IMG/VR virus record: IMGVR_UViG_3300009506_000117
Coordinates: 1 to 35,126 of that record
Origin: a virus
DNA: 35,126 nucleotides
Direction: 5' to 3' (one strand)
A model generated the notes under the pieces. That model was not told where the DNA came from. It ran no database searches and was given only the letters and a program-made list of their open reading frames with translations. This document shows positions 8,219 through 34,706 of this stretch, piece after piece. Numbering within the stretch: position 1 is the stretch's first letter; each line of letters opens with the position of its first letter. The translations under genes were made by a program, and so were the position numbers.

Positions 8219-8234
8219 AGCAACCTCATATAAG

Positions 8235-18720: not shown

Positions 18721-21206
18721 GGCTTTTCCTTCTTCGGTTTTGGCTTAGCCGTTTTCTTTACAGAGGCCATCTGCTTGGCTGCCTCAAGCTTGGCCTGATG
18801 AAGCTCGCGCATATGCTCCATCTTTAATCTATGTTCCTCAGCGGCGCGATCCATCTCGGCATTATGCCGCTCGCGCTCCATATTAAGCTCATGCTCTGTT
18901 TTAACCCTGCCGCCGTGCATTTCATGCTGCGTGGCAATAGCATCAGACTGTAACTTGTGAGCCTTTTCTGCCCGATCTCCTGCAACTTTATGGGCCGCGA
19001 TAAATTGTTCCTTTCGCATTTCATGTTGAGCAAGCGCGGCATCCCTAGCAGCATCATGAGCGTGAATGATTTTCTCCTGCTCTAGCCTCAGCTTCTGAAG
19101 CTCGATCTTCATTGCCTCGATTTTTTCTCTGGACTCACGATCCTTAGCTTTATCAGCAAGCTGCGCAGCAAGCTGGGCGGCCTTGATCTTGGTTTCGAGG
19201 GCGGAGATCGCATTCTCCTGCTCCTGCATCCTGGTTTTGGCACTGATAGCCTCCATGCGAGGATCTGGCGGCGGCTGCGCCGGAGTCGGCCTGAATAGAC
19301 CTTGCGGGTCGATACCGGCGATACTCAACACTCTCATATCGACAGCTACCGGATCGTAAAGATCCTGGCTCTGCTGCTGTAACGTCTTGATGATTGTTGC
19401 CTTGGCTATCCGATGAAGCATGGTTGGGTTGTTAGGATCGGCAACCGGAACCAGCGAGCAATTATCAAGTGCCTTAACGAATTGGTCTTTCTGCCATTGG
19501 ATAGATGTATTCTTATTATTGCGTAGAAATGCGTCTGGATCTTCCCTAAATCGCTCCTTGAGAAGCTTGAACTCCTCGGCTTGCGCTGCGTGTAGGCGCT
19601 TATGCGCGGAATCCAGCACTTTGCTGGCCTGCTCGATCAGAGCCAATGTAGTTCCCACTGGGGCATCCTGCTTGCCCTCGCCAACCGTAATGCTGCCGGT
19701 AGCTGCAAGCCTCTGGCCAACCTCTTCGATATGGGTGATGAAAGCTGTAAATGCTGGCCCAGGCTCCTTATATGGCAGCGGCATAACGGCATCGCGAATG
19801 CTTTGCTGAGCGCCAATATCCAGTCCCTGACCACCTGATGGCGGAATCCGGAACTGATTGGTGTTCTGTCGGCCAGCACCTTTAGCGTAGAGAAATCCTG
19901 GGAAATTTGCGAACATCCCAGCGTCGAGCATTTCCCGCCATGCTGCGGTCAACGCATTTGCTGTATTCCCAAGGAGATGGATGAATCCAAGACCATAGAA
20001 TCCAAGACCACGAATGAACGGGAATTGGACAAAGAATTGCTTGGCTAGGCAATGCTTATCATCCTCTTTCCAGTTACGCCTGACATCGAGAACTTCCCTG
20101 CTCTCTCGCGCAATAGTCACACGGTAAGGAAGCGGAAGGCCCTTTCCCTTGAGATCATTTGGGGCAAACTCATCTAGATCTAGCTCGCAGTAAACTTCGA
20201 GGATCTCGTAATCCATATCCTCTGGGCGCTGCACATTTGAGCGAATGCCCTCGACTTCTTCCTTTTTCTTGTCTACGGCGTTTTGTTGAAGCGGTACGGG
20301 TTGAGTTAAATCAACGTCTCGATACGCCCCGATAATCTGCATCCGGCGAAGAATTGATTTTCGCATACGGATGCGATGAGTAATACGTCCGCTATTCTGC
20401 AAGTCAGTCGCATGATTAGAGACGATTAGATCTTCGGCGTCGATGCTTTCTGAAACCGGCCTGCGCCGTAATGGGCAATTATATACTTTCTTAAATCCAT
20501 CTCCGCCAAAACCGACATAAAATAGCATGCGGTCGGTATCCGGAATGTATTCTGTCGCTATCGCAGTTAGATAATGATTTAGATCTTTCTCTAGTGCCTG
20601 CGCCTCAATATCAATGGATTGCAGGCTTTCCTGCAATTCTTGCTTAGCGTTTGTCTGCTGATTTACTTCAGGAGGCTTAGGTGGAGTGTCGTTTCTTACC
20701 TTTACTGGACCGGCGGCTGGCAGCAATTCAGCCCTGGCTGTAGCCTGAAATGCTACGGTTGATTCGATCAACAGCGGATGCCGAACAACGGACATGCCCT
20801 CTAGCGGGGCAGAACTATTACCGGCATCGGTTCTTGGCTGTTCAAGCTTGATTCCTAAGAGGCTTATTCCTCTCGCTCGCGTATCCAGCCACTCCTGCCG
20901 CGATTGTTCGTCGCGCTGTATTCCTTCCAATAAATCAGAAGCTATGGATGAAAGCTTCTCATCGCTCATGTGAAGGGCGAGATTCTCGCTGAATCCCTTT
21001 TCTCCTTCACTGATTTCAGGCTGTGGATTAAAATCTATAGTTACTGAACCATCGGGATGGGCGATTTTCATCGCCCCATCCTCAAATGAGACTCCTATAT
21101 TATTTTCTGTTTGTTCAGTGTTTGTTCCACCAACAAGAGACAGGCGCGGGGGAGTAGCCTGCGGGAACGGCTCGTTTAGCGGAATGCTGTTAGATCTTGG
21201 AGCCAT
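18717..21206 (-). CDS. Portal protein with long C-terminal coiled coil (829 aa)
   Basis: The central region has portal features: PLEGMSVVRHPLLIESTVAF, DTDRMLFYVGFGGDGFKKVY, ESIDAEDLIVSNHATDLQNS and a wing region with DYEILEVYCELDLDEF. The clip and stem region reads RGLGFYGLGFIHLLGNTANA with LTAAWREMLDAGMFANFPGF, then VGTTLALIEQASKVLDSAHK. SExxxAEDLIV and GTTLALIEQ are frequent in portals of short-tailed and SU10-like phages. From about residue 640 to 810 the chain is one long, charged, His-rich coiled coil, ending in a Lys/Pro tail. It forms the dodecameric DNA gate and follows terL directly, the standard order. Confidence 0.88.
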   Translation of the reverse strand: MAPRSNSIPLNEPFPQATPPRLSLVGGTNTEQTENNIGVSFEDGAMKIAHPDGSVTIDFNPQPEISEGEKGFSENLALHMSDEKLSSIASDLLEGIQRDEQSRQEWLDTRARGISLLGIKLEQPRTDAGNSSAPLEGMSVVRHPLLIESTVAFQATARAELLPAAGPVKVRNDTPPKPPEVNQQTNAKQELQESLQSIDIEAQALEKDLNHYLTAIATEYIPDTDRMLFYVGFGGDGFKKVYNCPLRRRPVSESIDAEDLIVSNHATDLQNSGRITHRIRMRKSILRRMQIIGAYRDVDLTQPVPLQQNAVDKKKEEVEGIRSNVQRPEDMDYEILEVYCELDLDEFAPNDLKGKGLPLPYRVTIARESREVLDVRRNWKEDDKHCLAKQFFVQFPFIRGLGFYGLGFIHLLGNTANALTAAWREMLDAGMFANFPGFLYAKGAGRQNTNQFRIPPSGGQGLDIGAQQSIRDAVMPLPYKEPGPAFTAFITHIEEVGQRLAATGSITVGEGKQDAPVGTTLALIEQASKVLDSAHKRLHAAQAEEFKLLKERFREDPDAFLRNNKNTSIQWQKDQFVKALDNCSLVPVADPNNPTMLHRIAKATIIKTLQQQSQDLYDPVAVDMRVLSIAGIDPQGLFRPTPAQPPPDPRMEAISAKTRMQEQENAISALETKIKAAQLAAQLADKAKDRESREKIEAMKIELQKLRLEQEKIIHAHDAARDAALAQHEMRKEQFIAAHKVAGDRAEKAHKLQSDAIATQHEMHGGRVKTEHELNMERERHNAEMDRAAEEHRLKMEHMRELHQAKLEAAKQMASVKKTAKPKPKKEKP

Positions 21207-21215
21207 TCGCTGTCA

Positions 21216-22949
21216 TCAGCACGGGTATAGAGGAGAGGACGCGTTAGGTGATTTATATCGCATTTCCTCTTCTACTTCTATCGTATACTCCGTTCTCTTC
21301 AACGCAAAGCCAGAATCCCTTAAGAAACGCAAAGCCTGGGATGTGGAATCTACAAGGTCGTCATGTGAACCGCGCGGGAAGATGGCACATTGGTTGATGA
21401 CAACATCGGCCCAAACCTTGTTGGGGGCGAAGATCATCTTATCGGAAAAGAGATGCTGGATGGCGTGAACGCGGGCAACCTTGTCGCCATACTGCTTGGG
21501 GTCGATTAGATCCACCCCAAATCTACCGGTGCCACGGAATAGACGGTGGAGTTCCTGGCCAACCGATAACCCGCTGGCCTTTGACTCGATCAGCAACCGG
21601 TCAACTGCGAATCTAGGCTCCCCAATACGGTCGCTGATACGCGGGGTGTCAACCGTGCAACTCTCTATAACCCTTTGAATTAAATCATTAAATTCTAATC
21701 TGCCTTGCCAAGCATGCATTAATACAATCCTTGGGCTACCACTAACACCTCTTGCAACCTGCGGTGTATCTCTTGGCATCCAGAGGGCTTCTGTTCCCAT
21801 TTCGTTCGCGTTTAGATCCTCTCTAAATACCCCCCAGATGGTCAGGGCGGAGGCATCGTTTTCCTCTTTCGCGGTATAGGCGGTATCCAGGGAAGCCAGA
21901 ATGAAATCGAGAGGTGGGTACTTATCCTCTTTCCAAAGCTGCCAAAAATCGCGCTTTATGATAGACCCGCCACGCGGTTCCGGATCTTGCTGATACTGAC
22001 CGGACCATGCGTATGGCCCCTTATCCCGCCGTAATTCCTCACACACCTTGATCGGGAATCGCTCCGGCCACGCGATCTGGCCATCCTCGATTCTAGGATC
22101 TTCCCAGAAATAATTATCGTCCGTTACCTCGTTAACCTCTTCACCTATAAAGGATTTTATGACCGGCTTGCCGTCATCTATGGTGTAGCCGTTAACGTGG
22201 TGGGACGGCAGGTAATACATGGGGATACAGAGGTGTGTGTATCCCATCTCCCGCGCCAGGGCGGTGCCGCTGACATCATCCTCATGAGTGCGCTGCTGGA
22301 TAACGACTATGGCAGATTCGGACTGATTGTTGAGTCGGTCAGGAATAATTTCCGTGAACCACATATTTATGGTGTCACGAACTACCTCAGATTCCATATC
22401 TTTTGGGTTATTAGGGTCGTCAATGATAACGCGGTCTGCCCGCTCGCCAGTACCGATACCGCTGACTGAGGTGGCAAGCTTCCAACCGGTTTGGTCGTTG
22501 GCGAATTTGATCTTGGTGAACTGCTCGTTCGAGATCCTAAACCGCTCCCCCCACAGCTTTTTGTAGCGGTCGCTGATAACCACGTTCCGACAGCGCATAT
22601 TATCGCGCTCAGTCAGATGGTTAGAATAGGCCGCACACATATAGCGCATCCATGGCCTATTCCTTGGCCCCCACTCCCATGCTGGCCAAAATACGTCCGT
22701 CATCAATGACTTAGTAAATCCCGGCGGGACGTTTATGAGTAAGCGGCGGATATATCCATCCGTTACCGCCTCCAGATGCTCGGCTATCGCTTCGAGTGCC
22801 CAGCCGCGAATGAATGGAATTGCCGGTTCGACTACCGGCCAAACATACTGGGCGAAATCGAGTAGGCTTGATTCGTATTTTTTCTGCTCAAGCAGCTTTC
22901 CGATCTGCCTGTACGCTTTGTACGTCTGCTTGACGATTAAATGATTCAT
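21216..22949 (-). CDS. terL: Terminase large subunit (577 aa)
   Basis: An ATPase domain is visible with a Walker A-like NVPPGFTKS at about residues 73-81, Walker B RVIIDD at about 173-178 and a GIGTGERADR stretch just before it. The C-terminal nuclease domain shows the RuvC-like acidic positions in ASLDTAYT, LIESKASG and HDDLVDSTSQAL. It pumps DNA into the capsid and cuts concatemers. The start at 22949 is chosen over 23003 because AGGA lies six bases upstream and the extra 18 residues would come from the regulatory dyad. No small terminase is adjacent. Confidence 0.92.
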   Translation of the reverse strand: MNHLIVKQTYKAYRQIGKLLEQKKYESSLLDFAQYVWPVVEPAIPFIRGWALEAIAEHLEAVTDGYIRRLLINVPPGFTKSLMTDVFWPAWEWGPRNRPWMRYMCAAYSNHLTERDNMRCRNVVISDRYKKLWGERFRISNEQFTKIKFANDQTGWKLATSVSGIGTGERADRVIIDDPNNPKDMESEVVRDTINMWFTEIIPDRLNNQSESAIVVIQQRTHEDDVSGTALAREMGYTHLCIPMYYLPSHHVNGYTIDDGKPVIKSFIGEEVNEVTDDNYFWEDPRIEDGQIAWPERFPIKVCEELRRDKGPYAWSGQYQQDPEPRGGSIIKRDFWQLWKEDKYPPLDFILASLDTAYTAKEENDASALTIWGVFREDLNANEMGTEALWMPRDTPQVARGVSGSPRIVLMHAWQGRLEFNDLIQRVIESCTVDTPRISDRIGEPRFAVDRLLIESKASGLSVGQELHRLFRGTGRFGVDLIDPKQYGDKVARVHAIQHLFSDKMIFAPNKVWADVVINQCAIFPRGSHDDLVDSTSQALRFLRDSGFALKRTEYTIEVEEEMRYKSPNASSPLYPC

Positions 22950-22950
22950 A

Positions 22951-23039
22951 AAAATTCCTGTGCAAAACTTTTCGGAATTTTCTTTGTGACCGAGCAAGAA
23001 CAAATTAAGAATGATTCAGACAATTCTCGCATCGTTCTT
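22951..23039. promoter_or_regulatory. Divergent control region between terL and the sugar operon
   Basis: Two dyads are visible. The first has arms AAAATTCC (22951-22958) and GGAATTTT (22974-22981), perfect over 8 bp. The second is nested: AAGAAC (22996-23001) with GTTCTT (23034-23039), and AGAAT (23008-23012) with ATTCT (23023-23027), with identical six-base spacers on both sides. A weak sigma70-like plus-strand promoter overlaps it: TTGTGA (22984-22989), 17 bases, AAGAAT (23007-23012). No good minus-strand promoter is seen. Confidence 0.4.
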
Positions 23040-23090: not shown

Positions 23091-23264
23091 TTGACCAAAA
23101 AAGATCTCATGGAGATGGAAAGGCGTGTAGCCGAAGAGGTTCTGGCCCGCAGACGGTTAGGTGGCTACAGCGCCGACTCCAACGGCATCCTGCTCTTTGG
23201 TGAGGCAATCCTTGCCATCCTGCGACACTTGAATTTGCAGATGGACAAGGGTGGTCGCAAATGA
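23091..23264 (+). CDS. Small helical protein opening the sugar operon, TTG start (57 aa)
   Basis: The frame is open from 22941, but the upstream part crosses the control dyads. The best start is TTG at 23091, with GGGAG six bases before it. The product is MTKKDLMEMERRVAEEVLAR, then RRLGGYSADSNGILLFGEAI and LAILRHLNLQMDKGGRK, mainly helical. It overlaps the acetyltransferase gene by four bases (ATGA), so it may serve to load ribosomes into the operon. I do not recognise the family. An ATG at 23109 is an alternative start. Confidence 0.55.
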   Translation: MTKKDLMEMERRVAEEVLARRRLGGYSADSNGILLFGEAILAILRHLNLQMDKGGRK

Positions 23265-23812
23265 ACGACCCAATTCTGAGTGCCATCGTGAGGGCTAACA
23301 TAGCCCCGGTTATTTCACTGCGATCTGAGGTTGATACGACCATCGACAATATCAAGCGCATGGTCGGGTGGCTGAACGATCCTGAGGTGGTTAGGTACTC
23401 GGAACAGCGACACAAGAAGCACGATCTCCACTCCCAATTGGCCTATATCGAAAGTTTTAGACATGGAGAATTTAATGAAATTCTCCTCAACGGCGAACCA
23501 ATAGGAACCATAACCGGCAGAGTTGATGACAATAACAAGATTGCCGATATGGGAATCCTAATAGGCGAAAGGCCGGTATGGGGATGCGGATATGGGACAG
23601 TCGCGTGGAGATTGATGATGAAGCATCTGTTTCGCGATTTCAAAGTAAGAAAAATAGAAGCCGGATGCATGGAATGCAATCGAGGGATGATGGCGGTTTT
23701 CAGAAAAACTGGAATGAGTTGTGAGGGATACAGAATTGGACATTTTTTATTTAATGACGGCGATGGGGAGAAGGAACACTGCTTGGCGTATTGGATGAAA
23801 TGGAGAGAATAA
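23261..23812 (+). CDS. GNAT N-acetyltransferase, RimJ/RimL or PseH-like (183 aa)
   Basis: The chain shows the GNAT order: WLNDPEVVRYSEQRHKKHDL near residues 37-56, a typical RimL/PseH N-terminal helix. Then come the strand ILLNGEPIGTITGRVDDNNK, the acetyl-CoA loop region MGILIGERPVWGCGYGTVAW and CNRGMMAVFRKTGMSCEGYR. The loop is a variant of Q/RxxGxG/A (ERPVWGCGYG). In a nonulosonic acid pathway PseH transfers acetyl to the 4-amino group of the UDP-sugar, and the neighbours support this. Antibiotic or ribosomal protein acetylation are less likely alternatives. Confidence 0.75.
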   Translation: MNDPILSAIVRANIAPVISLRSEVDTTIDNIKRMVGWLNDPEVVRYSEQRHKKHDLHSQLAYIESFRHGEFNEILLNGEPIGTITGRVDDNNKIADMGILIGERPVWGCGYGTVAWRLMMKHLFRDFKVRKIEAGCMECNRGMMAVFRKTGMSCEGYRIGHFLFNDGDGEKEHCLAYWMKWRE

Positions 23813-23813
23813 A

Positions 23814-24416
23814 ATGAAACAGTCAGAGATATTCCTGGCTGGAGAAGCCCAGAAATGGGACGAAAGGAATCGGGATAAGTTACCGCCTGAACACGATCCA
23901 GTGTTAGAGGCCATTGCCGCAACTGATCTCAAGCCTGGGAGGGTGCTTGAGGTTGGTTGTGGTAATGGGTGGCGGTTAAGAAAACTGAAAGAGATTTATG
24001 GCTGCAATTATTGGGGCATCGACCCACTTGGAACGAATCCAAACTCAGATTGGAAGATAGTTAAGGGGGTAGCCAGCAATCTTAAGTTTTTTCCAGTTCC
24101 GAATTTTGACGTGGTGATCTACGGATTCTGCCTTTATCTCTGCGACCCGGAGGATTATTTCAAAATAGCCGCTGAAGGAGATCGCGTCCTAACCGATGGC
24201 GGCCATATTATCATCTACGATTTCTTCGCTAATCCACCTTATAAAACTCCATACAAACATAAAGACGGAGTGTTCTCACACAAGATGGATTTCTCCAGTC
24301 TATGGAAATGGCATCCTGCCTATAACGCGGTTTATCGCGCTTATGGCGCGGAAGAAGGAACTGCCGTTATTATGCTGCGTAAGAACATGAAAACATGCTT
24401 CCCGGTGAAAAAATGA
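23814..24416 (+). CDS. Class I SAM-dependent methyltransferase (200 aa)
   Basis: Motif I VLEVGCGNG is at about residues 44-52, followed by the acidic loop YWGIDPLG, then FDVVIYGFCLYLCDPEDYFK as motif IV and LTDGGHIIIYDFF as post-motif. The protein fits a small Methyltransf-type enzyme. It sits one base after the acetyltransferase stop and overlaps the oxidoreductase by four bases. It may O- or N-methylate the sugar or its precursor, since methylated nonulosonic acids are known. The substrate cannot be deduced from sequence. Homologs are common in capsule and flagellin glycosylation loci. Confidence 0.8.
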   Translation: MKQSEIFLAGEAQKWDERNRDKLPPEHDPVLEAIAATDLKPGRVLEVGCGNGWRLRKLKEIYGCNYWGIDPLGTNPNSDWKIVKGVASNLKFFPVPNFDVVIYGFCLYLCDPEDYFKIAAEGDRVLTDGGHIIIYDFFANPPYKTPYKHKDGVFSHKMDFSSLWKWHPAYNAVYRAYGAEEGTAVIMLRKNMKTCFPVKK

Positions 24417-25315
24417 AACAGAAAACAATAGGAATAGTCGGACTTGGCAGCATTGGCATGCGCCACGCAAAGAACCTAATGGATCTTGGTAAGCTTGTAG
24501 TCGGCTGCGATATTCACATATCGAGGGGAGAGCAGTTAATAGAATTAGGTGGAGATTATTATCAATCACCGGAAAAGCTAAAGGGCTGCGATGCTATCGT
24601 GATAGCAACCCCATCTGAGGCACATCAGGTTATGTACGACTATTTCAGTAAAAAACCTATTTTCATGGAAAAGCCGATAGCCACTGAATTGGACGACTCG
24701 CTTAAGGATGTGTTGATGGTTGGATATAATCTACACTTCCATCCATGCGTCATTCAGGCCCAAGAATGGATGCGACAGGATTATCTAGGAAAACCATTAT
24801 GGGCGAATCTTGTTTGTGCTCAGCGTAACCTAAGACCGGATTATCTATGCGAAGGCGTTATTCTTAATTGGTCGCATGAGATAGATCTCGCTCTCCATCT
24901 TCTTGGTCCTGGGACTTGCGTAAGTTGCGTAGCCGACAGCAAGGAGACTCTCGCTGACATAGTTGTTCTACACGACAACGGTTGCCAATCGACCATCCAC
25001 CTTGATTACTTAACTGAACCGTTTATTCGTCAGACCATCATAGTTTTCGAGCATGCAACCATCATACTGGATCTGCAAGCGCGGCAATGCTGGATACGAG
25101 ACAAGAGCGGAGACATCATTGACCATTTTGCTCCGGGCGATTCGTTCGATGACGACTATGTAAACGAAATAGAGACGTTCCTTGCGCGAGCTAATGGTGA
25201 AACCACCGTTGGCTGCACCGGAGAAGAGGGTTTGGCAACGCTTAAGGTTTGCCTGGATGCAAAAATATTTGCAGAAAATCCAGCGGTTATAGTCAAGCCG
25301 GATAAAATACAATGA
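24413..25315 (+). CDS. Gfo/Idh/MocA family sugar oxidoreductase (300 aa)
   Basis: The ATG at 24413 overlaps the previous stop (ATGA) and starts directly with the Rossmann strand MKQKTIGIVGLGSIGMRHAK, the NAD(P)-binding GxGxxG. DAIVIATPSEAH and the diagnostic FMEKPIA (Lys of EKP near residue 87) follow. The catalytic domain has NWSHEIDLALHLLG, where SHxID is a family signature. The last part is the beta-sheet of MocA proteins. Such enzymes oxidise or reduce a ring carbon of nucleotide sugars and often accompany SpsF-NeuB clusters. A longer frame from 24395 adds five residues and has no SD support. Confidence 0.88.
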   Translation: MKQKTIGIVGLGSIGMRHAKNLMDLGKLVVGCDIHISRGEQLIELGGDYYQSPEKLKGCDAIVIATPSEAHQVMYDYFSKKPIFMEKPIATELDDSLKDVLMVGYNLHFHPCVIQAQEWMRQDYLGKPLWANLVCAQRNLRPDYLCEGVILNWSHEIDLALHLLGPGTCVSCVADSKETLADIVVLHDNGCQSTIHLDYLTEPFIRQTIIVFEHATIILDLQARQCWIRDKSGDIIDHFAPGDSFDDDYVNEIETFLARANGETTVGCTGEEGLATLKVCLDAKIFAENPAVIVKPDKIQ

Positions 25316-27348
25316 AAACGGTCGCTATCGCTCAAGCCCGCATGGGTTCTACTCGCGCTCCCGGCAAAGTGATGCGCGATTTGTGCGGAAAGCCGGTGCT
25401 AAAATGGACTGTCAATGCACTAGAGGCAGCCATTGGTATTGATAAAGTGGTTGTGGCTACCTCAACGCAACTAGCAGACGTCGAGATAGCAAAATACTGC
25501 GAATATAATGGCATATTAGTTTATCGCGGCAGCGAATCTAATGTTCTTCAAAGATTCTATGAATGTGCCAAGTTACACAAAGCTGACATTATTCTGCGAC
25601 TGACATGCGACTGTCCGTTCCTTGACCCAACCGTTATAAGTGAGGTAGTCCGTCTCCGCAAAACAACGGGGGCGGCGTATGCGTCAAATACTAATCCCCC
25701 TACTTATCCTGATGGTCTTGATGTTGAGTGCTTTACCTTTGCGGCACTCCAAGAAGCCTACTCCAACGCTACCAGATCTAGTGATCTTGATTGCGTCACT
25801 CAGTATATTATTCGTAATCGTCATACTTTCCCCGCTGTTAACCTTACTTGCCCGATTCCTGGGCTGGTAAAGGAGCGCTGGGTTCTCGATACCGAGGATG
25901 ATTTTGCGTTTTGCGTTGCATTAGCTAACATTCTTAGCGGTAGCGGAAAAGACAGACCGCCATCTTATACCGAGATACTTGAAATACTCGATAAGATACC
26001 CGCCCTGAGGAAGATAAATCCGGGGGATCGCAATGAAAGATTCTATGAAGCGTTGGCTAGAGAGAAATTACCCAGAAGAACCTTCACCAGATCCAATGAT
26101 CTTTTCAAAAAGGCTATTCAATCAATACCGTTTGGAGCACAAACCTTTTCTAAATCATATCTCCAATTCCCGCTCGGCCAATCGCCGCTATTTTTGTCTC
26201 ACGGCGACGGGGCTAGGGTGTTTGATGTTGATGGGAATGATTATGTCGATCTTGTTAATGCGCTACTCCCTGTGGTTCTTGGCTATCGTGACCATGATGT
26301 TGACGCTGCCATTCGCAATCAGCTTGATAGTGGAATCTCATTCTCACTGGCGACGGAACTCGAAGAGAAACTGGCTAGTAAACTCTGCGAAATCATCCCG
26401 TGCGCTCAGATGGTCAAATTCGGAAAATCAGGAACCGATGTAACCACAGCCGCTGTGAGGCTTGCCCGTGCTTATACAGGCCGCGATCATGTCGTCTACT
26501 CTGGATACCATGGTTGGGCTGATTGGTCTCTGTCTCGCTCTGACTATAATCTTGGCATTCCAGAGGCGGTGAGATCTCTGTCACATAAGGTCAAGCATGG
26601 TGACGCAGATTGGATGGATAATTTTCCAGTTCCATCACATGAAATAGCGGCGATAGTCGTAGAGCCTGACATTGATGCCGGATACAGATACCTGCAAGAG
26701 CTAAGAAACTTCTGCGACAAGCACGGAATCGTTCTCATCTTCGATGAGATCATAACAGGATTCCGCTATGACATCGGCGGCGGCCAGAAGATGCATAAGG
26801 TGACGCCGGATTTGGCGACATTCGGTAAATCCATGGCGAATGGAATGCCGATCTCCGCGCTTGTCGGCAAGCGTGACATCATGAAGCGCATGCAGCCGCC
26901 GGATAATATCTTCTATTCAGGAACATTCTTCGGTGAAACGCTCTCTATTGCGGCTGCGCTGGCCACCATCAAGAAAATGGAAGATGAGCCAGTGATAGAT
27001 CACCTGAGGAATATTGGTGACAGCATATACGAAGGCATGATGATCCACTTAGATCGCCATGATCTATATGATTACATACAACCAATAGGCCATCCTTCGC
27101 GGCGCGTTCTTAAATTCGAGGGACCATTTAAGGAACAAGTGCAATCAACGCTGATAAGCGAGATGGCACAGAACGGCGTACTGATTATCAACGCCAATAA
27201 CATCTCATATGCCCATAAGAGGCCAGAGATGTTCCGTATATTGGATGCCTATGATGCTTCCCTGAGCGAGATTTCCAAGAAAATCAAAGACGGAAGTATC
27301 AAGGATGTGCCGGTCAAGAGCCAGATTCCTCCGCTAAGGGCTGCATAA
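25312..27348 (+). CDS. SpsF-like cytidylyltransferase fused to class III aminotransferase (678 aa)
   Basis: Residues 1-235 are an SpsF-type nucleotidyltransferase: IAQARMGSTRAPGKVMRDLC, then VVVATS, LRLTCDCPFLDP and WVLDTEDD. These enzymes are related to CMP-nonulosonate synthetases. Residues 255-660 are a glutamate-1-semialdehyde aminomutase-like PLP enzyme: DVDGNDYVDLVNALLPVVLG, KFGKSGTDVTTAAVRLARAY, FDEIITGFRYD (Asp 478) and the Schiff-base lysine in LATFGKSMANGMP (Lys 506). Two enzymes in one chain implies direct coupling of amination and activation of the sugar. Such fusions occur in bacterial surface-sugar clusters. It overlaps both neighbours (ATGA and TAATG). Confidence 0.88.
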   Translation: MKTVAIAQARMGSTRAPGKVMRDLCGKPVLKWTVNALEAAIGIDKVVVATSTQLADVEIAKYCEYNGILVYRGSESNVLQRFYECAKLHKADIILRLTCDCPFLDPTVISEVVRLRKTTGAAYASNTNPPTYPDGLDVECFTFAALQEAYSNATRSSDLDCVTQYIIRNRHTFPAVNLTCPIPGLVKERWVLDTEDDFAFCVALANILSGSGKDRPPSYTEILEILDKIPALRKINPGDRNERFYEALAREKLPRRTFTRSNDLFKKAIQSIPFGAQTFSKSYLQFPLGQSPLFLSHGDGARVFDVDGNDYVDLVNALLPVVLGYRDHDVDAAIRNQLDSGISFSLATELEEKLASKLCEIIPCAQMVKFGKSGTDVTTAAVRLARAYTGRDHVVYSGYHGWADWSLSRSDYNLGIPEAVRSLSHKVKHGDADWMDNFPVPSHEIAAIVVEPDIDAGYRYLQELRNFCDKHGIVLIFDEIITGFRYDIGGGQKMHKVTPDLATFGKSMANGMPISALVGKRDIMKRMQPPDNIFYSGTFFGETLSIAAALATIKKMEDEPVIDHLRNIGDSIYEGMMIHLDRHDLYDYIQPIGHPSRRVLKFEGPFKEQVQSTLISEMAQNGVLIINANNISYAHKRPEMFRILDAYDASLSEISKKIKDGSIKDVPVKSQIPPLRAA

Positions 27349-28205
27349 TGAAGGGAATCGTCATTACCGGCGGAACCGGAGCATTCGGCAGGGCATTTGC
27401 TAGGCACCTGCTTACCCCTATTGGGGAGAGAACTTGGTATGATCGCATAGTTATCTACTCACGCGGCGAGTATCAACAGCATCTTATGGCCAAGGAATTG
27501 GCCGGAATGGATAGTTTACAGCGCCTAAGGTTCTTTGTTGGTGATATTCGTGATGAGGCCAGATTCAAACGCGCTTTGCATGGTTGCAGCACTGTGGTTC
27601 ACGCCGCCGCGCTGAAACGCATCGAAGTTGGTCACTACAATCCCGATGAAATGATTAAAACCAACATCGGCGGATCGCAGAATGTTGTAGAAGCCTGCCT
27701 GGATTCCAAGGTTAAGAAGGTTGTTTTTCTGTCTAGCGACAAAGCTTACCAGCCGGTCAGCCCTTACGGCTTGAGTAAGGCTATGGCCGAGTCGCTGTTC
27801 ATCAACGCCAACAACATGCGCGGCTGGAGCGGGCCGATGTTCTCGGTTTGCCGCTACGGGAATGTCTGGAAATCGACCGGATCGGTGGTTCCGACATGGC
27901 TGGCCATGAAAGAGCGCGGAGAGACAACGGTTAACGTAACAGATCCGGACTGCACCCGCTTCTTCATGCGGATGGAAGAAGCCATCAAACTGGTAATGGA
28001 CACACTGGAGAGTATGCGCGGGCGCGAAATAAACATACCCACACTACCTGCGTACCGCTTGGGCGATTTGGCAGAGGCCATGAGTGTTGAATACAAGGTA
28101 ACAGGGCTGCCGTCGTGGGAAAAGAAGCATGAAAGCATGGGTGACGGCAACAGCAGCGATTTAGCTCGGAGAATGTCAATAGAGGAACTTAGGAGTGAGC
28201 TATGA
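27348..28205 (+). CDS. PseB-like UDP-GlcNAc 4,6-dehydratase/SDR (285 aa)
   Basis: It is an extended SDR with GGTGAFG at residues 8-14 and GDIRDE at about 65-70. HAAALKRIEVGHYNPDEMIK follows, then SSDKA at 129-133, YGLSK with Tyr140 and Lys144, and FSVCRYGNVWKSTGSVVPTW. This matches PseB (HAAALK..., STDKA, YGxxK, RYGNVxxSxGSV...). The catalytic Ser/Thr position is a Ser instead of the usual Thr. PseB removes water and inverts C5 of UDP-GlcNAc, the first step to pseudaminic acid. It is coupled to the upstream gene by TAATG. Confidence 0.85.
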   Translation: MKGIVITGGTGAFGRAFARHLLTPIGERTWYDRIVIYSRGEYQQHLMAKELAGMDSLQRLRFFVGDIRDEARFKRALHGCSTVVHAAALKRIEVGHYNPDEMIKTNIGGSQNVVEACLDSKVKKVVFLSSDKAYQPVSPYGLSKAMAESLFINANNMRGWSGPMFSVCRYGNVWKSTGSVVPTWLAMKERGETTVNVTDPDCTRFFMRMEEAIKLVMDTLESMRGREINIPTLPAYRLGDLAEAMSVEYKVTGLPSWEKKHESMGDGNSSDLARRMSIEELRSEL

Positions 28206-28510
28206 TTAACTGCCCCTATTGCGGAACCCAACTATCCAGCGAGCCTTATATTCCAACAATGTCTAAGCGGAAGCGCCGGATTTACGATTCCATAAGCGCA
28301 GCCGGAGCGGATGGAATGACGGCAGACGATATAATCGGTGTGGTATTCGAGAGTAGCGGCATCCCACGATCTGCGTATGGAATGGTGAGGGTTCAAATCT
28401 GCGAAATCAATAAAATAATAAGCGAAAATGGACAGAAGATTTCCGGAATACCTAAAGGATCATACAAGTTAATCTCACTGGGAGGGAGATATGGCCAAAC
28501 GCAAGAATAA
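28202..28510 (+). CDS. Phage zinc-knuckle/winged-helix protein (102 aa)
   Basis: MINCPYCGTQLSSEP carries one CxxC. From residue 20 the chain reads SKRKRRIYDSISAAGADGMT and ADDIIGVVFESSGIPRSAYG, then MVRVQICEINKIISENGQKI and SGIPKGSYKLISL, a winged-helix layout. Such small proteins are frequent in phages and probably bind DNA. It overlaps the dehydratase by four bases, so a regulator-like phage gene is embedded in the sugar operon. Target and role are unknown. Confidence 0.65.
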   Translation: MINCPYCGTQLSSEPYIPTMSKRKRRIYDSISAAGADGMTADDIIGVVFESSGIPRSAYGMVRVQICEINKIISENGQKISGIPKGSYKLISLGGRYGQTQE

Positions 28511-28682
28511 GATGCCGAAAGAGGTTTTTGTCTATGTGTTTGACGAAGAGAATGGCGTACCACTTTATGCCGTCACCACAGACATAGACGATATTACGGA
28601 GGGCGAAACATATGTTGGTGTTTATAAGCTGAAGAGAACAGATAAGTTTGTAGTTAAAAAAGAACTGCAAAGGGGAAAATAA
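28491..28682 (+). CDS. Small hypothetical protein (63 aa)
   Basis: MAKRKNKMPKEVFVYVFDEE, then NGVPLYAVTTDIDDITEGET and YVGVYKLKRTDKFVVKKELQ suggest a small beta-rich domain. The pattern (FVYVxxDEENGxPLYxVTxDxxDIxEGExVGVYxLxR) is of a kind seen in small phage proteins. It overlaps the previous gene by 20 bases and has GGAGGG shortly upstream, so it is actively translated. Function is unknown. Confidence 0.6.
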   Translation: MAKRKNKMPKEVFVYVFDEENGVPLYAVTTDIDDITEGETYVGVYKLKRTDKFVVKKELQRGK

Positions 28683-28876
28683 TGGCTCGACCACTAAAGA
28701 AGATGAAGCCGGATCAGATCATTTCTGCTGTCACGCGGATTCGTGGGCGGAATAATCGTCTCTGGATGTCTCTGCTCAGGCTGTCTGTGAAAGCCAAGCC
28801 GAGAAAGGCCAAGGCCATCATCAGGCAGATAGTGAAGAACGATCAGGACGTATCCAAATGGATGGGCCGCGTCTAG
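28682..28876 (+). CDS. Small basic helical protein (64 aa)
   Basis: MARPLKKMKPDQIISAVTRI, RGRNNRLWMSLLRLSVKAKP and RKAKAIIRQIVKNDQDVSKW form a basic helical protein. The RxRxxNNxLWMxLLRLAxxxxPxxAKxIxxxI arrangement is found in small proteins of sugar (NeuB-containing) clusters. It may therefore be an accessory protein of the pathway rather than a pure phage gene. Its start overlaps the previous stop (TAATG), and its end overlaps the aminotransferase start by 19 bases. Confidence 0.6.
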   Translation: MARPLKKMKPDQIISAVTRIRGRNNRLWMSLLRLSVKAKPRKAKAIIRQIVKNDQDVSKWMGRV

Positions 28877-29970
28877 GGCCTCTGCCTAGATTCTTTACTA
28901 TCGACCTAGCAGAGCGAATCAACTTAAAGACGGCGATGAAGAATCCCCTCTCCGGTTATATTGGAGGGGTGAACTCAGCCGGATATTGGGTTACAAAGCT
29001 ACAGAACGATTGGTGTGATACGTTTGGGTGCAAGCATGCGGTAGCCTGTAATTCTGCAACATCTGGATTGCTGGCTGCCTGCATGGCCATAGGGATAGGT
29101 CCGGGAGACACGGTATGGACCACCGCCTACAGCATGTCTGCTACGGCTGCCTGTGCGAAGGTATTAGGAGCGCGTATTGTGTTCATAGACATCGAGACGA
29201 CGCGATTCTCGATCAATATGAATCTTCTCCGTGGACCTATTCCCAAGTGTATTATTGTGACGAACTTATTCGGGCATCCAGCATATTTGGAAACCATGCG
29301 TTCCTGGTGCGACTCCAATAGAGTCTGGATGATCGAGGATAACGCTCAAGCCCCGTTTGCAAAGGAGAATGGTCGCTATGCTGGCACTATCGGCCATATT
29401 GGTGTTTTTTCGCTCAACGTACATAAGCATATTCAGGCTGGCGAAGGTGGCATTGTTGCTTGTGACGGCGAAGATAGTCATCAAGCTATTGCGGATGCTA
29501 TCAACCATGGCGAGTTGGCTAAGGGTAAAATTAAAGCAGGTCTAAATCTGCGAATGACGGAGCCAATAGCGGCCATTGCCTGTGCTCAACTTGCCAGAGG
29601 GAAGAGAATCATAGCCAATAGAAGGTGGCTGGCCCACAAACTAACTGAGATGTTCAGCGGGATAGATTGGTTGATCCCGCCCAAGGAAGATGATGGATGC
29701 GAGCATGTCTATTACGTTTGGGCTGCCCGCATTGAAAACGGCAAACGCAAACAATTCGTAGAATTGCTGAATGGTTGCGGATTTCCCATGCGAGAAGGGT
29801 ACTCCACTCCGCTGCCATTCATCTTCGATAGAGACCAGGAGTGCCCGACGACTAACAGAATAGAGCTTCACGAACTTATAACATTCGAGGTGTGCGCATA
29901 TGATCCGGTTCAAAGGCAACTTAGAACTATGTCAGACATTGCTAAATGGGCGGCAGACAGGGTGCAATAA
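28858..29970 (+). CDS. DegT/DnrJ/EryC1/StrS sugar aminotransferase, PseC-like (370 aa)
   Basis: This is a fold type I PLP enzyme with the DegT family sequence marks. They are CNSATSGLLAACMAIGIGPG near residues 64-83, TAYSMSATAACAKVLGA, IVTNLFGHPAYLETM, EDNAQA (Asp161) and the PLP lysine in VFSLNVHKHIQAGEGGI (Lys190). NLRMTEPIAAIACAQLARGK follows, as in PseC and related NDP-4-keto-sugar aminotransferases. It would place an amino group at C4 of the keto-sugar made by the dehydratase. It is coupled to the synthase gene by TAATG. Confidence 0.88.
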   Translation: MDGPRLGPLPRFFTIDLAERINLKTAMKNPLSGYIGGVNSAGYWVTKLQNDWCDTFGCKHAVACNSATSGLLAACMAIGIGPGDTVWTTAYSMSATAACAKVLGARIVFIDIETTRFSINMNLLRGPIPKCIIVTNLFGHPAYLETMRSWCDSNRVWMIEDNAQAPFAKENGRYAGTIGHIGVFSLNVHKHIQAGEGGIVACDGEDSHQAIADAINHGELAKGKIKAGLNLRMTEPIAAIACAQLARGKRIIANRRWLAHKLTEMFSGIDWLIPPKEDDGCEHVYYVWAARIENGKRKQFVELLNGCGFPMREGYSTPLPFIFDRDQECPTTNRIELHELITFEVCAYDPVQRQLRTMSDIAKWAADRVQ

Positions 29971-30989
29971 TGAAGATTCATGGGAGGGAGATTTCACCAA
30001 CAAGACCACCATACATTGTGGCGGAGATTTCCGGGAATCATTGCGGATCGTTGGAACGCGCCCTGCGGCTGGTGCGGCGTGCCAAGCGGGCTGGGGCAAA
30101 CGCGGTAAAAACTCAATGCTATGAGGCTGACACACTCACATTACCGCTGAGCAAGCCTGATTTTGTCGTGCAGAACGGGCTGTGGATGGGTCGCACCCTG
30201 TATGAGATCTATGACAAGAGCAAGACGCCGTTTCACTGGCACAAGGATCTCTACAAGGTTGCCAGGGATGAGGATATTACGATCTTCTCATCCGTATTCG
30301 ATTTCAGGGGTGTCGATTATCTGGAGACGCTTGGTTGCCCTGCCTACAAGATAGCGTCATTCGAGATAGTCGATATTCCACTGATCGAATATGCGGCCAA
30401 GACCGGCAAGCCGATCATCATCTCCACCGGATTGGCATCAGATCCGGAGATCATCGAGGCGTATGATTGTGCAAACAAGATCAATTTTGGCAATGTCTGC
30501 ATGCTTCATTGCACGTCAGACTATCCGGGAACGGTGGCCGCCGCAGATCTTGGCAGGATAGATCATCTCAGGGTGATGCTGGATAGTGCCCTGATTGGCA
30601 TATCGGACCACACCCTTGGTTCTACCGTTCCGGTAGCTGCCACAGTTATGGGTGCATGCATCATCGAGAAGCATCTCAAGCTGGCCGACAATGATGGGCA
30701 CGTCTCCGAGGATGACAAATTCAGCACCGCGCCCATTGCTTTCAGCATGATGGCTATGGATGTTAGGGACATATGGCTTGGCATGAAGCCGCAGAAGCAT
30801 ACCGACAAGCCATCACGGCAGTTCAGGCGGTCGCTCTATGCGGTGCGCGACATCAAGAAAGGCGATCTGTTCACAACATCGAACATCAGGTCGATTCGTC
30901 CAGGCTATGGCCTACCGCCGAAACTGTTGCCGAAGCTTCTGGGAACCAAGGCTAAACGTGACTGGAAGATGGGAGAGAAGCTATCATGA
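29970..30989 (+). CDS. Pseudaminic/nonulosonic acid synthase, NeuB family, PseI-like (339 aa)
   Basis: The barrel domain shows PYIVAEISGNHCGSLERALR, ANAVKTQCYEADTLTL and GLWMGRTLYEIYDKSKTPFH. It continues with YKIASFEIVDIPLIEY, GKPIIISTGLAS, LHCTSDYP, IGISDHTLGS and CIIEKHLKL. The GLWxGxTLYELY block and the spacing are those of PseI rather than sialic NeuB. The last 60 residues are a SAF (antifreeze-like) domain: RRSLYAVRDIKKGDLFTTSN, IRSIRPGYGLPPK. The enzyme condenses PEP with a six-carbon diamino sugar. The start at 29970 shares its A with the TAA of the aminotransferase gene, so the 29946 frame extension is rejected. Confidence 0.92.
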   Translation: MKIHGREISPTRPPYIVAEISGNHCGSLERALRLVRRAKRAGANAVKTQCYEADTLTLPLSKPDFVVQNGLWMGRTLYEIYDKSKTPFHWHKDLYKVARDEDITIFSSVFDFRGVDYLETLGCPAYKIASFEIVDIPLIEYAAKTGKPIIISTGLASDPEIIEAYDCANKINFGNVCMLHCTSDYPGTVAAADLGRIDHLRVMLDSALIGISDHTLGSTVPVAATVMGACIIEKHLKLADNDGHVSEDDKFSTAPIAFSMMAMDVRDIWLGMKPQKHTDKPSRQFRRSLYAVRDIKKGDLFTTSNIRSIRPGYGLPPKLLPKLLGTKAKRDWKMGEKLS

Positions 30990-31246
30990 AGCCGCATATG
31001 ACGGAGCCTAATCCGGAGTTAGCCAAGCTGGTGCGTAATACCTTTCATGGCATGGCACATTGGGCAGGATCAGGACCGCAAGGAAAGACCTGTGCTACCT
31101 GCCAGCATTTTGGCACCGTTTACCAATACGAAGGTGCAAAACCGAAGAAAGATCGGTGCAAATTATATTTTAAGATGATGGAAGGTAAGATAGGGAATCA
31201 GATTCCAGCCAATACGATGTCCTGCAAGCACTACTCTGAAATCTAA
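30986..31246 (+). CDS. Cys-rich phage protein at the end of the sugar operon (86 aa)
   Basis: MKPHMTEPNPELAKLVRNTF, then QGKTCATCQHFGTVYQYEGA, DRCKLYFKMMEGKIGNQIPA and MSCKHYSEI. Four cysteines in CxxC...C...C spacing suggest a zinc or iron-sulphur cluster site of the type found in small phage proteins (TCxxCxHF...RCxLYxxM...AxACKxF). It overlaps the synthase by four bases (ATGA). Its stop overlaps the stop of the convergent gene 31243-31473 by four bases, leaving no room for a terminator. Confidence 0.7.
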   Translation: MKPHMTEPNPELAKLVRNTFHGMAHWAGSGPQGKTCATCQHFGTVYQYEGAKPKKDRCKLYFKMMEGKIGNQIPANTMSCKHYSEI

Positions 31247-32975: not shown

Positions 32976-33178
32976 TCACGCGCTCGCGCTCCCGACCCAG
33001 GCCCTGTCTGTTCCCTATTCGTTCTCGATCTGTTCGCTGTTCGTTCACGGTCTAGCCCTTGGCGGAGCGGCGCATGACGCGCGAGCGAGCGCGGTATTAT
33101 AACGCGAGCGCGAGGCAAACCGATTGGAATGTCAATGCGTTAGCATTGAAAGGGCGGCAGGCCGAAAGTTGGTGTGTA

Positions 33179-33208
33179 GCAGACCCTGAGTTCTTACGAA
33201 GGGTCTGC
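33179..33208 (+). other. Hairpin upstream of the first early gene
   Basis: GCAGACCCT (33179-33187) pairs perfectly with AGGGTCTGC (33200-33208) around a 12-base loop, 27 bases before the ATG at 33236. The SD GGAG (33225-33228) remains single-stranded between the hairpin and the ATG. Confidence 0.5.
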
Positions 33209-33235
33209 GTAACACCACCACACCGGAGCCGACCG

Positions 33236-33439
33236 ATGGCAAAGCCGACGAAGCGACCGACGACGCTAAACCCCCGATTTCGGGGTTCTCGGAATAAACG
33301 GCTGGAAGCCGTTGCGAACCGGATTTTAGGCAAGTCCGGTTACTTCGACAAAGGCGAGCGCGCTCAATGGGAAGCGTGGGAAGCCGAGCAGATCGGCCAG
33401 AATGGCCGATTGAAGGCCACTTGGATTGGCCGACCCTGA
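33236..33439 (+). CDS. Small early protein (67 aa)
   Basis: The ATG at 33236 has GGAG seven bases before it. The long frame from 33059 is rejected because its start crosses low-complexity DNA and a hairpin. The product is MAKPTKRPTTLNPRFRGSRN, KRLEAVANRILGKSGYFDKG and ERAQWEAWEAEQIGQNGRLK, basic at the N-terminus with a Trp-containing helix. It ends TWIGRP and its TGA is followed at once by a strong hairpin. Function is unknown. It is first in the plus-strand early series. Confidence 0.6.
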   Translation: MAKPTKRPTTLNPRFRGSRNKRLEAVANRILGKSGYFDKGERAQWEAWEAEQIGQNGRLKATWIGRP

Positions 33440-33440
33440 G

Positions 33441-33496
33441 GGAGTTTCTATCTCTCTCCCCCATCACGAAGTGAGGGGAGAGAGAGTAGAAACCCC
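33441..33496 (+). terminator. Very long hairpin after 33236-33439
   Basis: GTTTCTA (33444-33450) pairs with TAGAAAC (33487-33493). The adjoining TCTCTCTCCCC and TCAC segments pair with GTGA and GGGGAGAGAGA around a GAA loop, giving about 22 bp with two small bulges. It begins two bases after the stop codon. No U-tract follows, so it may be a processing or stability element as well as an attenuator. Its core recurs at 34401-34433. Confidence 0.55.
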
Positions 33497-33524
33497 TCTC
33501 ACCACAAACCAACGGAGACTGACG

Positions 33525-33851
33525 ATGACGAAGATCGAGTTCGAGACTGCGATTGCTCAGGCTGTTGCGAAAGCCCTTGCAAATCAGGGCGTTTCTCAGC
33601 CGAAGGCTGCGACCAAGGCTGAGGACAAGAACTCGGCTTTTGCCGAGAAGGATAAGAAGCTGGTTCGCGGTTTTAACCGCAAGGGCTTCAAGAACGTGCA
33701 GTTGCTGGATCGGAACGATCCCAGCAAGCCGTTTAACGTCAAGACTTTCGACGGCTGGCTTAAGGAAGGCCGCCGAGTAAAGAAAGGTCAGCATGGCATC
33801 CGTAGGATGTTCCACGTTGACCAGACCGAGGTGGTTTCCACCTCTGCCTGA
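33525..33851 (+). CDS. Small protein with ArdC-N-like segment (108 aa)
   Basis: The ATG 33525 follows AACGGAGACTGACG. The product is MTKIEFETAIAQAVAKALAN, then a Lys/Ala linker, LVRGFNRKGFKNVQLLDRND and PSKPFNVKTFDGWLKEGRRV, ending KKGQHGIRRMFHVDQTEVVS. The TFDGWLKEGRRVKKGQHGI pattern resembles the TxxQxxxLGxxVRKGExG element at the N-terminus of ArdC-type antirestriction/ssDNA-binding proteins. The metallopeptidase part of ArdC is absent. The similarity is short, and DNA binding is inference. Related small proteins seem common on alphaproteobacterial mobile elements. Confidence 0.6.
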   Translation: MTKIEFETAIAQAVAKALANQGVSQPKAATKAEDKNSAFAEKDKKLVRGFNRKGFKNVQLLDRNDPSKPFNVKTFDGWLKEGRRVKKGQHGIRRMFHVDQTEVVSTSA

Positions 33852-33859
33852 GGCCTCAA

Positions 33860-33895
33860 ATAAGGGGGCGTTATCTCCGGATAACGCTCCCTTAT
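33860..33895 (+). terminator. 16-bp hairpin after 33525-33851
   Basis: Arms 33860-33875 and 33880-33895 pair over 16 bp with one G-T wobble, closing on a TCCG loop (core GCGTTATC with GATAACGC, outer ATAAGGG with CCCTTAT). It starts nine bases after the stop codon. The outer CCTC and GAGG add a few pairs beyond an AA bulge. No U-tract follows. Confidence 0.55.
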
Positions 33896-33959
33896 GAGGT
33901 TTATGAGGGTTAACATTTTGTTCTAAGGCTGAATACAGCCCAAGCCACGGAGAAAGCTC

Positions 33960-34205
33960 ATGATTACGGTCGTAGATCGCAATAAAACCGCCGATGGCGT
34001 GGCCATTGTCCAAAAGGTCACGAATCCGTCCAGTGGACGGCTCATTCGCTACCAGTACGCCTTTGAGGCCAAGCTGGGCGACTACAGCGCCATTACGGTG
34101 GCTTCCACACTTGAGGAAGCCCGTAAGGCCATTGGGAAAACCCAAGGCGGCAAAATCCAAGTCGCGGCTGATAAGCCGACCCTCAAGCTGGCATTGGGGG
34201 CTTAA
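33960..34205 (+). CDS. Small early hypothetical protein (81 aa)
   Basis: MITVVDRNKTADGVAIVQKV, then TNPSSGRLIRYQYAFEAKLG, DYSAITVASTLEEARKAIGK and IQVAADKPTLKLALGA form a small alpha/beta domain. The RBS is CCACGGAGAAAGCTC. It ends one base before the ATG of the next gene (TAAATG), so they form one unit. Function is unknown. Confidence 0.65.
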   Translation: MITVVDRNKTADGVAIVQKVTNPSSGRLIRYQYAFEAKLGDYSAITVASTLEEARKAIGKTQGGKIQVAADKPTLKLALGA

Positions 34206-34376
34206 ATGGACCAGTTTGCCGTCGCATTGGGAAATGCCTTTAAGGGTATTTCCCTCTATGGGCCGTTTGAATCCAAGGAAAAAGCCCATGAGTGGGGAGA
34301 ACAATACGTTCGCGACCATCACCAATGGCCGCCGACCGAATGGGAAGTCATTAGCCTTAACGACCCAGACTTCTAG
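34206..34376 (+). CDS. Small early protein (56 aa)
   Basis: An ATG directly after the previous TAA opens a 56-codon frame ending TAG at 34374-34376. The product is MDQFAVALGNAFKGISLYGP, FESKEKAHEWGEQYVRDHHQ and WPPTEWEVISLNDPDF. The pattern FxVxLGNxFxGIxLYGPFxxxExAxxWxExxxxxxEWxVIxL is that of a small phage/plasmid protein family of unknown function. Its tight start and aromatic-rich core support it as real. It is followed by a gap containing the hairpin 34401-34433. Confidence 0.65.
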   Translation: MDQFAVALGNAFKGISLYGPFESKEKAHEWGEQYVRDHHQWPPTEWEVISLNDPDF

Positions 34377-34400
34377 GCCAAATAGACCACCGACCCATCT

Positions 34401-34433
34401 ACTTGTCCCCCTCACGATAGTGAGGGGACAAGT
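34401..34433 (+). terminator. Hairpin after 34206-34376
   Basis: ACTTGTCCCC (34401-34410) pairs with GGGGACAAGT (34424-34433), and TCAC (34412-34415) pairs with GTGA (34420-34423) around GATA, with one bulged C. The core CCCC-TCAC-GA-GTGA-GGGG is shared with the hairpin 33441-33496, so the two belong to one structural family. No U-tract follows. Confidence 0.55.
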
Positions 34434-34466
34434 TGATGCCCCTCGAAAACCACGGAGAAACGGCCA

Positions 34467-34706
34467 ATGTGCTTTAGCACAGACGAAATCCACGATCTCA
34501 TGGCAGAGACCATCGAGCAACTTACGATAGCCTCTAGCTGCCGCAGCAAGCCCCATCCCCACCTTGATGAAGGGGATGACGACTACGATTTCGTTAATGC
34601 CAACCTTGAGCGGTGTGCTGACCGCCGAGATCGCCGTTGCCTGATTGAGTCCAGCAGCCATGTTAGGCTCGAACGAGAGGCCGACAGATTGTTGGGTCTT
34701 AACTAA
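34467..34706 (+). CDS. Small acidic early protein (79 aa)
   Basis: MCFSTDEIHDLMAETIEQLT, IASSCRSKPHPHLDEGDDDY and DFVNANLERCADRRDRRCLI, ending RLEREADRLLGLN. Three Cys and three His occur, but with no clear finger spacing. The RBS is CCACGGAGAAACGGCC. The gene ends shortly before a strong terminator. A large antisense frame (33132-34661) over this region is a shadow of the small plus-strand genes. Confidence 0.6.
   Translation: MCFSTDEIHDLMAETIEQLTIASSCRSKPHPHLDEGDDDYDFVNANLERCADRRDRRCLIESSSHVRLEREADRLLGLN

Follow-up and report, generated by a model that had tools for sequence, protein, structure and literature searches.

We analysed a 35,126-bp virus contig from IMG/VR (record IMGVR_UViG_3300009506_000117; this whole stretch is referred to as the window), which carries at positions 23091-31246 a gap-free plus-strand operon with genes of a nonulosonic acid pathway, transcribed divergently from terL, the gene for the terminase large subunit. 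Pseudaminic-type nine-carbon acidic sugars are displayed by bacteria on flagella and cell surfaces. Searches against Pfam and NCBIfam placed seven enzymes in the operon, which are, from 5′ to 3′, a GNAT acyltransferase, a methyltransferase, a Gfo/Idh oxidoreductase, a fusion of a cytidylyltransferase with a class-III aminotransferase, a PseB-like dehydratase, a DegT aminotransferase, and a PseI synthase. Five small open reading frames (ORFs) of 57, 102, 63, 64, and 86 amino acids complete the set, the 64-residue one being widely conserved. Successive genes overlap or abut (end/start 23264/23261, 23812/23814, 24416/24395, 25315/25312, 27348/27348, 28205/28202, 28510/28491, 28682/28682, 28876/28858, 29970/29946, and 30989/30986), and minus-strand genes flank the operon on both sides: terL (21216-23003) to the left and, from 31243 onward, small ORFs to the right. 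An earlier note on this DNA, made from the letters alone, had described a coupled plus-strand operon of these seven genes between minus-strand phage genes, and the ORF overlaps and family matches agree with it in gene content, place, and strand. Its further description of a position between virion and early modules applies to the left side, where TerL, portal, head, and adaptor genes form a virion module; the "early" label on the right was not borne out, since the right-flank ORFs tested gave no Pfam match.

Among all operon proteins, to which the NCBIfam equivalog cut-offs were applied, PseI alone exceeds one. This PseI-type nonulosonic (pseudaminic) acid synthase, with a C-terminal SAF domain (29946-30989), scored 383.7 bits against TIGR03586 (cut-off 340.25) and matched the PseI structure 8h2c in the PDB (E = 4e-75). 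When its active site was mapped onto Neisseria NeuB, using residue numbers that we take to be those of that structure, 13 of the 15 compared positions were kept (one of them as T to S), so the loss of NeuB/PseI active-site residues that had been raised as grounds for rejecting the assignment is not seen. The remaining two positions (N74 to G and N184 to S) do not vary among 12 phage sequences.

The enzymes of the earlier steps are more divergent from their family models. For the PseB/FlaA1-like UDP-N-acetylglucosamine (UDP-GlcNAc) 4,6-dehydratase (27348-28205), TIGR03589 is by far the best family, at 289 bits under a cut-off of 407.75; the top PDB match is FlaA1 (2gn4, E = 2e-62), and the FlaA1-type D-K...Y...K residues are retained (SDK...Y...K, 130-144). 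The DegT/DnrJ/EryC1 sugar aminotransferase (28858-29970; PF01041, Lys190 in VHKHIQAGEGG) scores well below the cut-offs for PseC (133 against 423.5 bits) and LegC (135 against 420 bits), and in a tree it falls outside the PseC clade, grouping with a second DegT that neighbours a lone SpsF gene in Alphaproteobacteria. Its tree position and PseC score rule out a canonical PseC; we infer that it nevertheless performs the PseC step. The GNAT N-acyltransferase (23261-23812; PF13302, 58 bits) has a probable PseH role, although it reaches only 27.5 bits with the PseH model TIGR03585 (cut-off 93); the GNAT part of a bacterial fusion with PseG scores similarly (25 bits).

The fusion protein (25312-27348) joins an SpsF-type cytidylyltransferase (residues 1 to ~240; PF02348, with ARMGSTRAPGK at 9-19) to a class-III, glutamate-1-semialdehyde aminomutase-like aminotransferase dependent on pyridoxal phosphate (PLP; residues ~255-660; PF00202, PLP Lys506 in FGKSMANGMP). 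The cytidylyltransferase is a CTP_transf_3 domain of SpsF type, the PseF model not being among the best 25 matches listed. Full-length homologues of the fusion are 51-61% identical in phages and reach ~50% in bacteria, and its closest cellular relatives, mostly in Alphaproteobacteria, are 43-52% identical. The two further tailoring candidates are an S-adenosylmethionine-dependent methyltransferase (23814-24416; Methyltransf_11/23/25 by Pfam and NCBIfam) and a Gfo/Idh/MocA oxidoreductase (24395-25315; PF01408) with weak matches to UDP-GlcNAc 3-dehydrogenase and inositol dehydrogenase. A dehydratase, a sugar aminotransferase, an N-acyltransferase, a PseI synthase, and a cytidylyltransferase are thus encoded together with a tailoring set, and judged by their sequences the enzymes look intact. 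A legionaminic or sialic acid pathway was rejected, as LegB (66 against 475 bits), LegC, and NeuB (231 against 400 bits) all fall under their cut-offs; the NeuC family had no match in 18 viral records. DNA hypermodification was also dropped, since none of the listed families pointed to a hydroxymethylpyrimidine or base-glycosylation gene and the operon itself has the make-up of a PseB/PseI set.

To collect relatives, TerL, the fusion, and a PseI alignment served as queries against viral contigs; a single-sequence PseI query gave no match, while the alignment query succeeded. The gene-order search that the earlier note had proposed found all seven genes divergent from terL in 19 IMG/VR contigs besides the window, at ~30-65% amino acid identity (near-identical contigs counted separately). 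In the TerL survey, which comprised 80 relatives, the start of the operon was present in every relative with TerL identity of at least 59% and at least ~1.2 kb of upstream sequence, and at least six operon genes were present in all those with the same identity and at least ~6.7 kb upstream. None of the relatives at 42-48% TerL identity carries it, including ~20 with 6-10 kb upstream, and it is also found in more distant members at 40-45% (L204-L206, L221, and L231). Because 19 other contigs share the seven genes by terL and the operon is universal at TerL identity of at least 59% wherever at least 1.2 kb of upstream sequence is available, the arrangement is beyond chance. The ratio of nonsynonymous to synonymous change (dN/dS) was 0.06-0.16 for the fusion, PseB, DegT, PseI, and Gfo/Idh where synonymous change was unsaturated, near the 0.05-0.10 of TerL and portal, these values being rough because many synonymous distances are high. 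By these ratios the operon enzymes are under purifying selection. In the PseI tree, 17 of the 18 terL-linked rows fall in one all-viral clade of 30 rows (SH-aLRT support 94); the exception, from L221, is sister to a Nitrobacteraceae sequence and is probably a gene replacement from a host. Together, these distributions indicate that the operon is a lineage-core trait, neither a recent insertion nor a chimera, and the description of it as "inserted" is not supported.

At least two steps of the pathway were missing from the phages, neither PseG nor a recognised glycosyltransferase being present in the window or in relatives of 71-77 kb. PseG had no match in 17 phage records, eight of them of 71-77 kb, and a locally built PseG model had none in any terL-linked locus. 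No glycosyltransferase was present among all matched Pfam families of a 76-kb relative (covering most ORFs of at least 100 amino acids, scanned within 20-kb pieces), nor among the 25 of 42 families that were listed for a second full-size relative, and GT2 and Maf models gave nothing above cut-off in 12 records. At least hydrolysis and transfer must therefore come from the host or from undescribed proteins, and with no glycosyltransferase found either the cell surface or the virion may be the target. For the pseudaminic-type pathway that the earlier note had proposed, these results leave a phage-borne pathway with a PseI above its cut-off; the pathway is incomplete because PseG is absent, its DegT lies outside the PseC clade, and its PseB and GNAT fall below their cut-offs.

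From these genes we infer the function and product of the operon, and we hold with moderate confidence that it is a lineage-core pseudaminic-type nonulosonic acid operon of SU10-like alphaproteobacterial phages, whose modified CMP-nonulosonate, made with the help of a host PseG and a host transferase, remodels the host surface. UDP-GlcNAc would be acted on by the PseB-like dehydratase and aminated by DegT, and N-acylation by the GNAT would follow (N-formylation in some relatives). Host PseG would then hydrolyse the UDP-sugar, no phage PseG being found, PseI would condense the hydrolysed sugar with phosphoenolpyruvate, and the SpsF domain would activate the product with CMP. The Gfo/Idh dehydrogenase, the class-III aminotransferase, and the methyltransferase would add an amino and a methyl group, so that the CMP-nonulosonate would differ from that of the host. 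Its attachment would fall to a host transferase, such as one of FlmG type acting on flagellin or one for surface polysaccharide, and the altered glycan on infected cells would block further adsorption. The phage probably has the means to alter the glycan coat either of the cell it infects or of its own particles; use at the host surface is the least certain step, preferred here since the screens turned up no phage transferase and since prophages are already known to tailor the pseudaminic acid of their host (PMC12053666). In favour of this reading, the bacterial relatives of the fusion sit in Pse clusters with PseB, PseC, PseG, and PseI.

The exact product is not predictable from sequence, and it may differ from pseudaminic acid by oxidation, amination, and methylation. 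The earlier suggestion of a product other than plain pseudaminic acid appears reasonable, since the Gfo/Idh, class-III aminotransferase, and methyltransferase genes are conserved and formyltransferase variants occur. A formyltransferase gene lies in or beside the operon in several relatives (L082 at 19-588, L013 at 7959-8573, L204, L201/L202, L014, and L221), which suggests N-formyl variants of the product.

Several points weigh against host-surface remodelling by a pseudaminic-type sugar. The first steps could use another sugar, because DegT is not orthologous to PseC and the GNAT scores far below the PseH cut-off. Reliance on a host PseG is argued from an absence. The broad glycosyltransferase screens covered only two relatives, with 25 of 42 matched families listed for one of these, and an undescribed transferase among the many uncharacterised ORFs is therefore possible. 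The window itself is a 35-kb fragment of a genome of probably 71-77 kb, the size of its relatives.

The main alternative, possible in our view and somewhat doubtful, is that the sugar decorates the virion: an unrecognised phage transferase, or a host cytoplasmic flagellin transferase, would put the nonulosonate on capsid or tail proteins, with a change in adsorption or a shield for the particle as the result. Such a role would fit with the universal retention of the operon in the clade, purifying selection near that of the virion genes, the position of the operon next to the virion module, and the many structural-module ORFs of unknown function. The same glycosyltransferase screens speak against it, with no such family in the relative with a full family list and no GT2 or Maf above cut-off in 12 records.

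Another explanation turns on the 64-residue ORF, orf64 (28682-28876, plus strand), which is confidently predicted to form a two-helix hairpin (mean predicted local distance difference test score, pLDDT, 89) with invariant R, N, N, W, and D residues in an RxxNNxxWM...D pattern. No Pfam, NCBIfam, or PHROG model matched it, and its fold matches were generic Rop-like and designed proteins only. It is a stand-alone gene in phages such as the window's; in another phage group it is fused to a formyltransferase (L222, L223, and L229), and in two alphaproteobacterial genomes and an Allofrancisella plasmid to a PseH-type GNAT. Predicted structure, alignment, and fusions are consistent with an acyltransferase-associated module of nonulosonate clusters. 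The two alphaproteobacterial genomes (G191 and G339; loci L253 and L254) carry it in a flagellar locus ordered flagellin, tetratricopeptide-repeat protein (FlmG-like), PseB, PseC, PseF, PseI, and GNAT/orf64, and neither whole genome had a PseG match.

On these grounds the operon could be biochemically complete, with orf64 or another phage protein replacing PseG, for example within an acyltransferase complex or by channelling towards another hydrolase; we think this unlikely. It would be favoured by the fusions of orf64 to acyltransferases in phages and bacteria, by the otherwise complete flagellar Pse loci lacking a PseG match, and by the lack of any sampled locus that has both orf64 and PseG. 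However, 29 viral loci have neither gene, so this exclusion is partly a lineage effect, and functional replacement of PseG by orf64 is for that reason a hypothesis only. A two-helix hairpin with Rop-like matches only is moreover an improbable hydrolase, and the two bacterial genomes may be incomplete. The broader proposal, that phages and a few bacteria run a PseG-independent nonulosonate synthesis marked by a 50-residue RxxNNxxWM hairpin, through which the SU10-like lineage makes an undescribed amino- and methyl-bearing nonulosonic acid, is speculative and given a low probability here.

It is equally improbable, as we see it, that the operon makes a different, non-Pse sugar or only tailors the host's CMP-nonulosonate, with PseB and PseI supplying precursor flux ("motility augmentation"). 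The grouping of DegT with the second DegT beside lone SpsF genes in bacterial clusters would fit, cytidylyltransferase and oxidoreductase tailoring modules are known (EpaA/EpaB, PMC12053666), and motility augmentation is the role given to viral pseI in PMC6359870. Nevertheless, a full set of PseB, aminotransferase, acyltransferase, and PseI under selection exceeds what tailoring needs. An assembly chimera or host contamination, in which a bacterial Pse cluster was joined to a phage contig, can be dismissed: the genes are typical of bacterial surface-glycan clusters, but the same junction and order recur in many independent contigs, the operon's GC content (0.45-0.53) is in line with its flanks, and the PseI clade is mostly viral, so the misjoined host contig raised as a concern at the outset is not what these data describe.

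Nonulosonate operons were also seen in other phages. L222 (7281-11751) encodes PseB (461 bits, cut-off 408), PseC (419, cut-off 423.5), PseF (223, cut-off 206), and PseI (366, cut-off 340) with a formyltransferase, and no PseG was found within the stretch examined. With L229 and L223 it belongs to a different phage group, in which PseB, PseC, PseF, and PseI lie at or near the curated cut-offs beside a formyltransferase and PseG is lacking. In L230 (888-5495), PseB, PseC, SpsF, GNAT, orf64, and PseI stand directly before phage structural genes. The operons of L222 and L230 therefore indicate that phage nonulosonate operons originated or were rearranged in at least two phage groups, in most cases with no PseG. 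Among 50,697 annotated phage records, 3 had a PseI/NeuB match, all below 30% identity, and none aligned with the fusion across 80% of its length. Some records labelled "Listeria phage" or "Staphylococcus phage" (e.g., OR847202 and OR844993) match the aminotransferase domain in long stretches without annotation and resemble host contigs submitted as phage sequence.

A gene for GcrA, a cell-cycle regulator of Alphaproteobacteria, was found above cut-off in 13 of the 17 phage records of the group (G000-G016). A control on 14 genomes gave matches in Caulobacter and, unexpectedly, in Sulfolobus; the window, itself a genome fragment, has none. The GcrA genes of its relatives indicate alphaproteobacterial hosts, and by this marker the window's phage family probably infects Alphaproteobacteria. 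DnaA-type helix-turn-helix genes accompany the GcrA-like genes in the two phages screened by Pfam, and a takeover of host cell-cycle control by these two kinds of gene is possible.

The left two thirds of the window consist of minus-strand virion genes of SU10 type. Besides the terminase large subunit (PHROG 38, E = 5e-78), they include an SU10-type portal (18717-21206; PF23899, 49 bits, cut-off 30; PHROG 1216), a major head protein (13766-14686; PHROG 371), and an SU10-type adaptor (2519-3250; PF24175, 76 bits, cut-off 27). Portal and adaptor of this type are shared with SU10-like phages, a group of podoviruses with an elongated (C3) head. Within the operon, the first ORF (23091-23264, 57 residues, TTG start) is matched by tblastn at the equivalent position of L009, L012/L083, L014, L024, L084, and L090, and the conserved 102-residue ORF (28202-28510) is matched in L003 and L006. 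The 63-residue ORF (28491-28682) is recognised by coupling only; the last, also coupled, encodes an 86-residue CxxC protein (30986-31246). A scan for promoters and terminators found no excess over shuffles. At the right end (31.2-35.1 kb), the translation of a minus-strand ORF of 509 residues (33132-34661) resembles a shadow of plus-strand coding.

That a whole phage lineage retains a near-complete operon among its core genes, under strong purifying selection and with a mostly viral PseI clade, suggests that the sugar matters to the phage itself. The operon is a tractable system for asking if infecting phages rewrite the surface sugars of their hosts, and it poses the biochemical question of how phage operons that repeatedly omit PseG complete the pathway. 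Compared to the CMP-pseudaminic pathway of Campylobacter and Helicobacter (PseB-PseC-PseH-PseG-PseI-PseF), the phage shares a PseI synthase, a PseB-like dehydratase, a DegT, a GNAT, and a cytidylyltransferase domain in one operon. It differs in being phage-borne, in lacking PseG and any glycosyltransferase found, in the placement of its DegT outside the PseC clade, in a cytidylyltransferase of SpsF rather than PseF type fused to a class-III aminotransferase, and in the additional Gfo/Idh and methyltransferase genes. Alphaproteobacterial pse clusters (Magnetospirillum, Rhodospirillaceae, and Nitrobacteraceae; L113-L128 and L192) contain the same fusion, often with Gfo/Idh, PseB, and PseI nearby, but they carry PseC and mostly a PseG-PseH fusion protein, both of which the phage set lacks. 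In the Aeromonas flagellar glycosylation islands of groups I and III, pse genes are mixed with class-III aminotransferase, methyltransferase, and Gfo/Idh genes, and subgroups ID and IE are without pseG (PMC7874193); these islands are chromosomal and adjoin flagellar genes and a Maf transferase, none of which applies to the phage.

Viruses with a lone pseI gene and phage enzymes that alter pseudaminic acid have been described before. EpaA, a fused cytidylyltransferase-reductase, alters Pse in prophage-bearing Acinetobacter (PMC12053666), and EpaA/EpaB are likewise phage genes altering a nonulosonic acid, with CTP_transf_3 fused to a tailoring enzyme. In EpaA the partner is an aldo/keto reductase acting on host-made Pse; by Pfam no aldo/keto reductase is present in the operon, whose fusion partner is a class-III aminotransferase, and the window phage also carries the synthase and early steps, conserved across its clade. 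Auxiliary metabolic genes listed in PMC6359870 include viral pseI, and neuB matches have been reported in viromes (PMC3877843). No report of a clade-wide nonulosonate biosynthetic operon was found in the open-access literature searched; the viral pseI and neuB reports concern single genes, whereas here a full operon is seen with known neighbours and lineage-wide retention.

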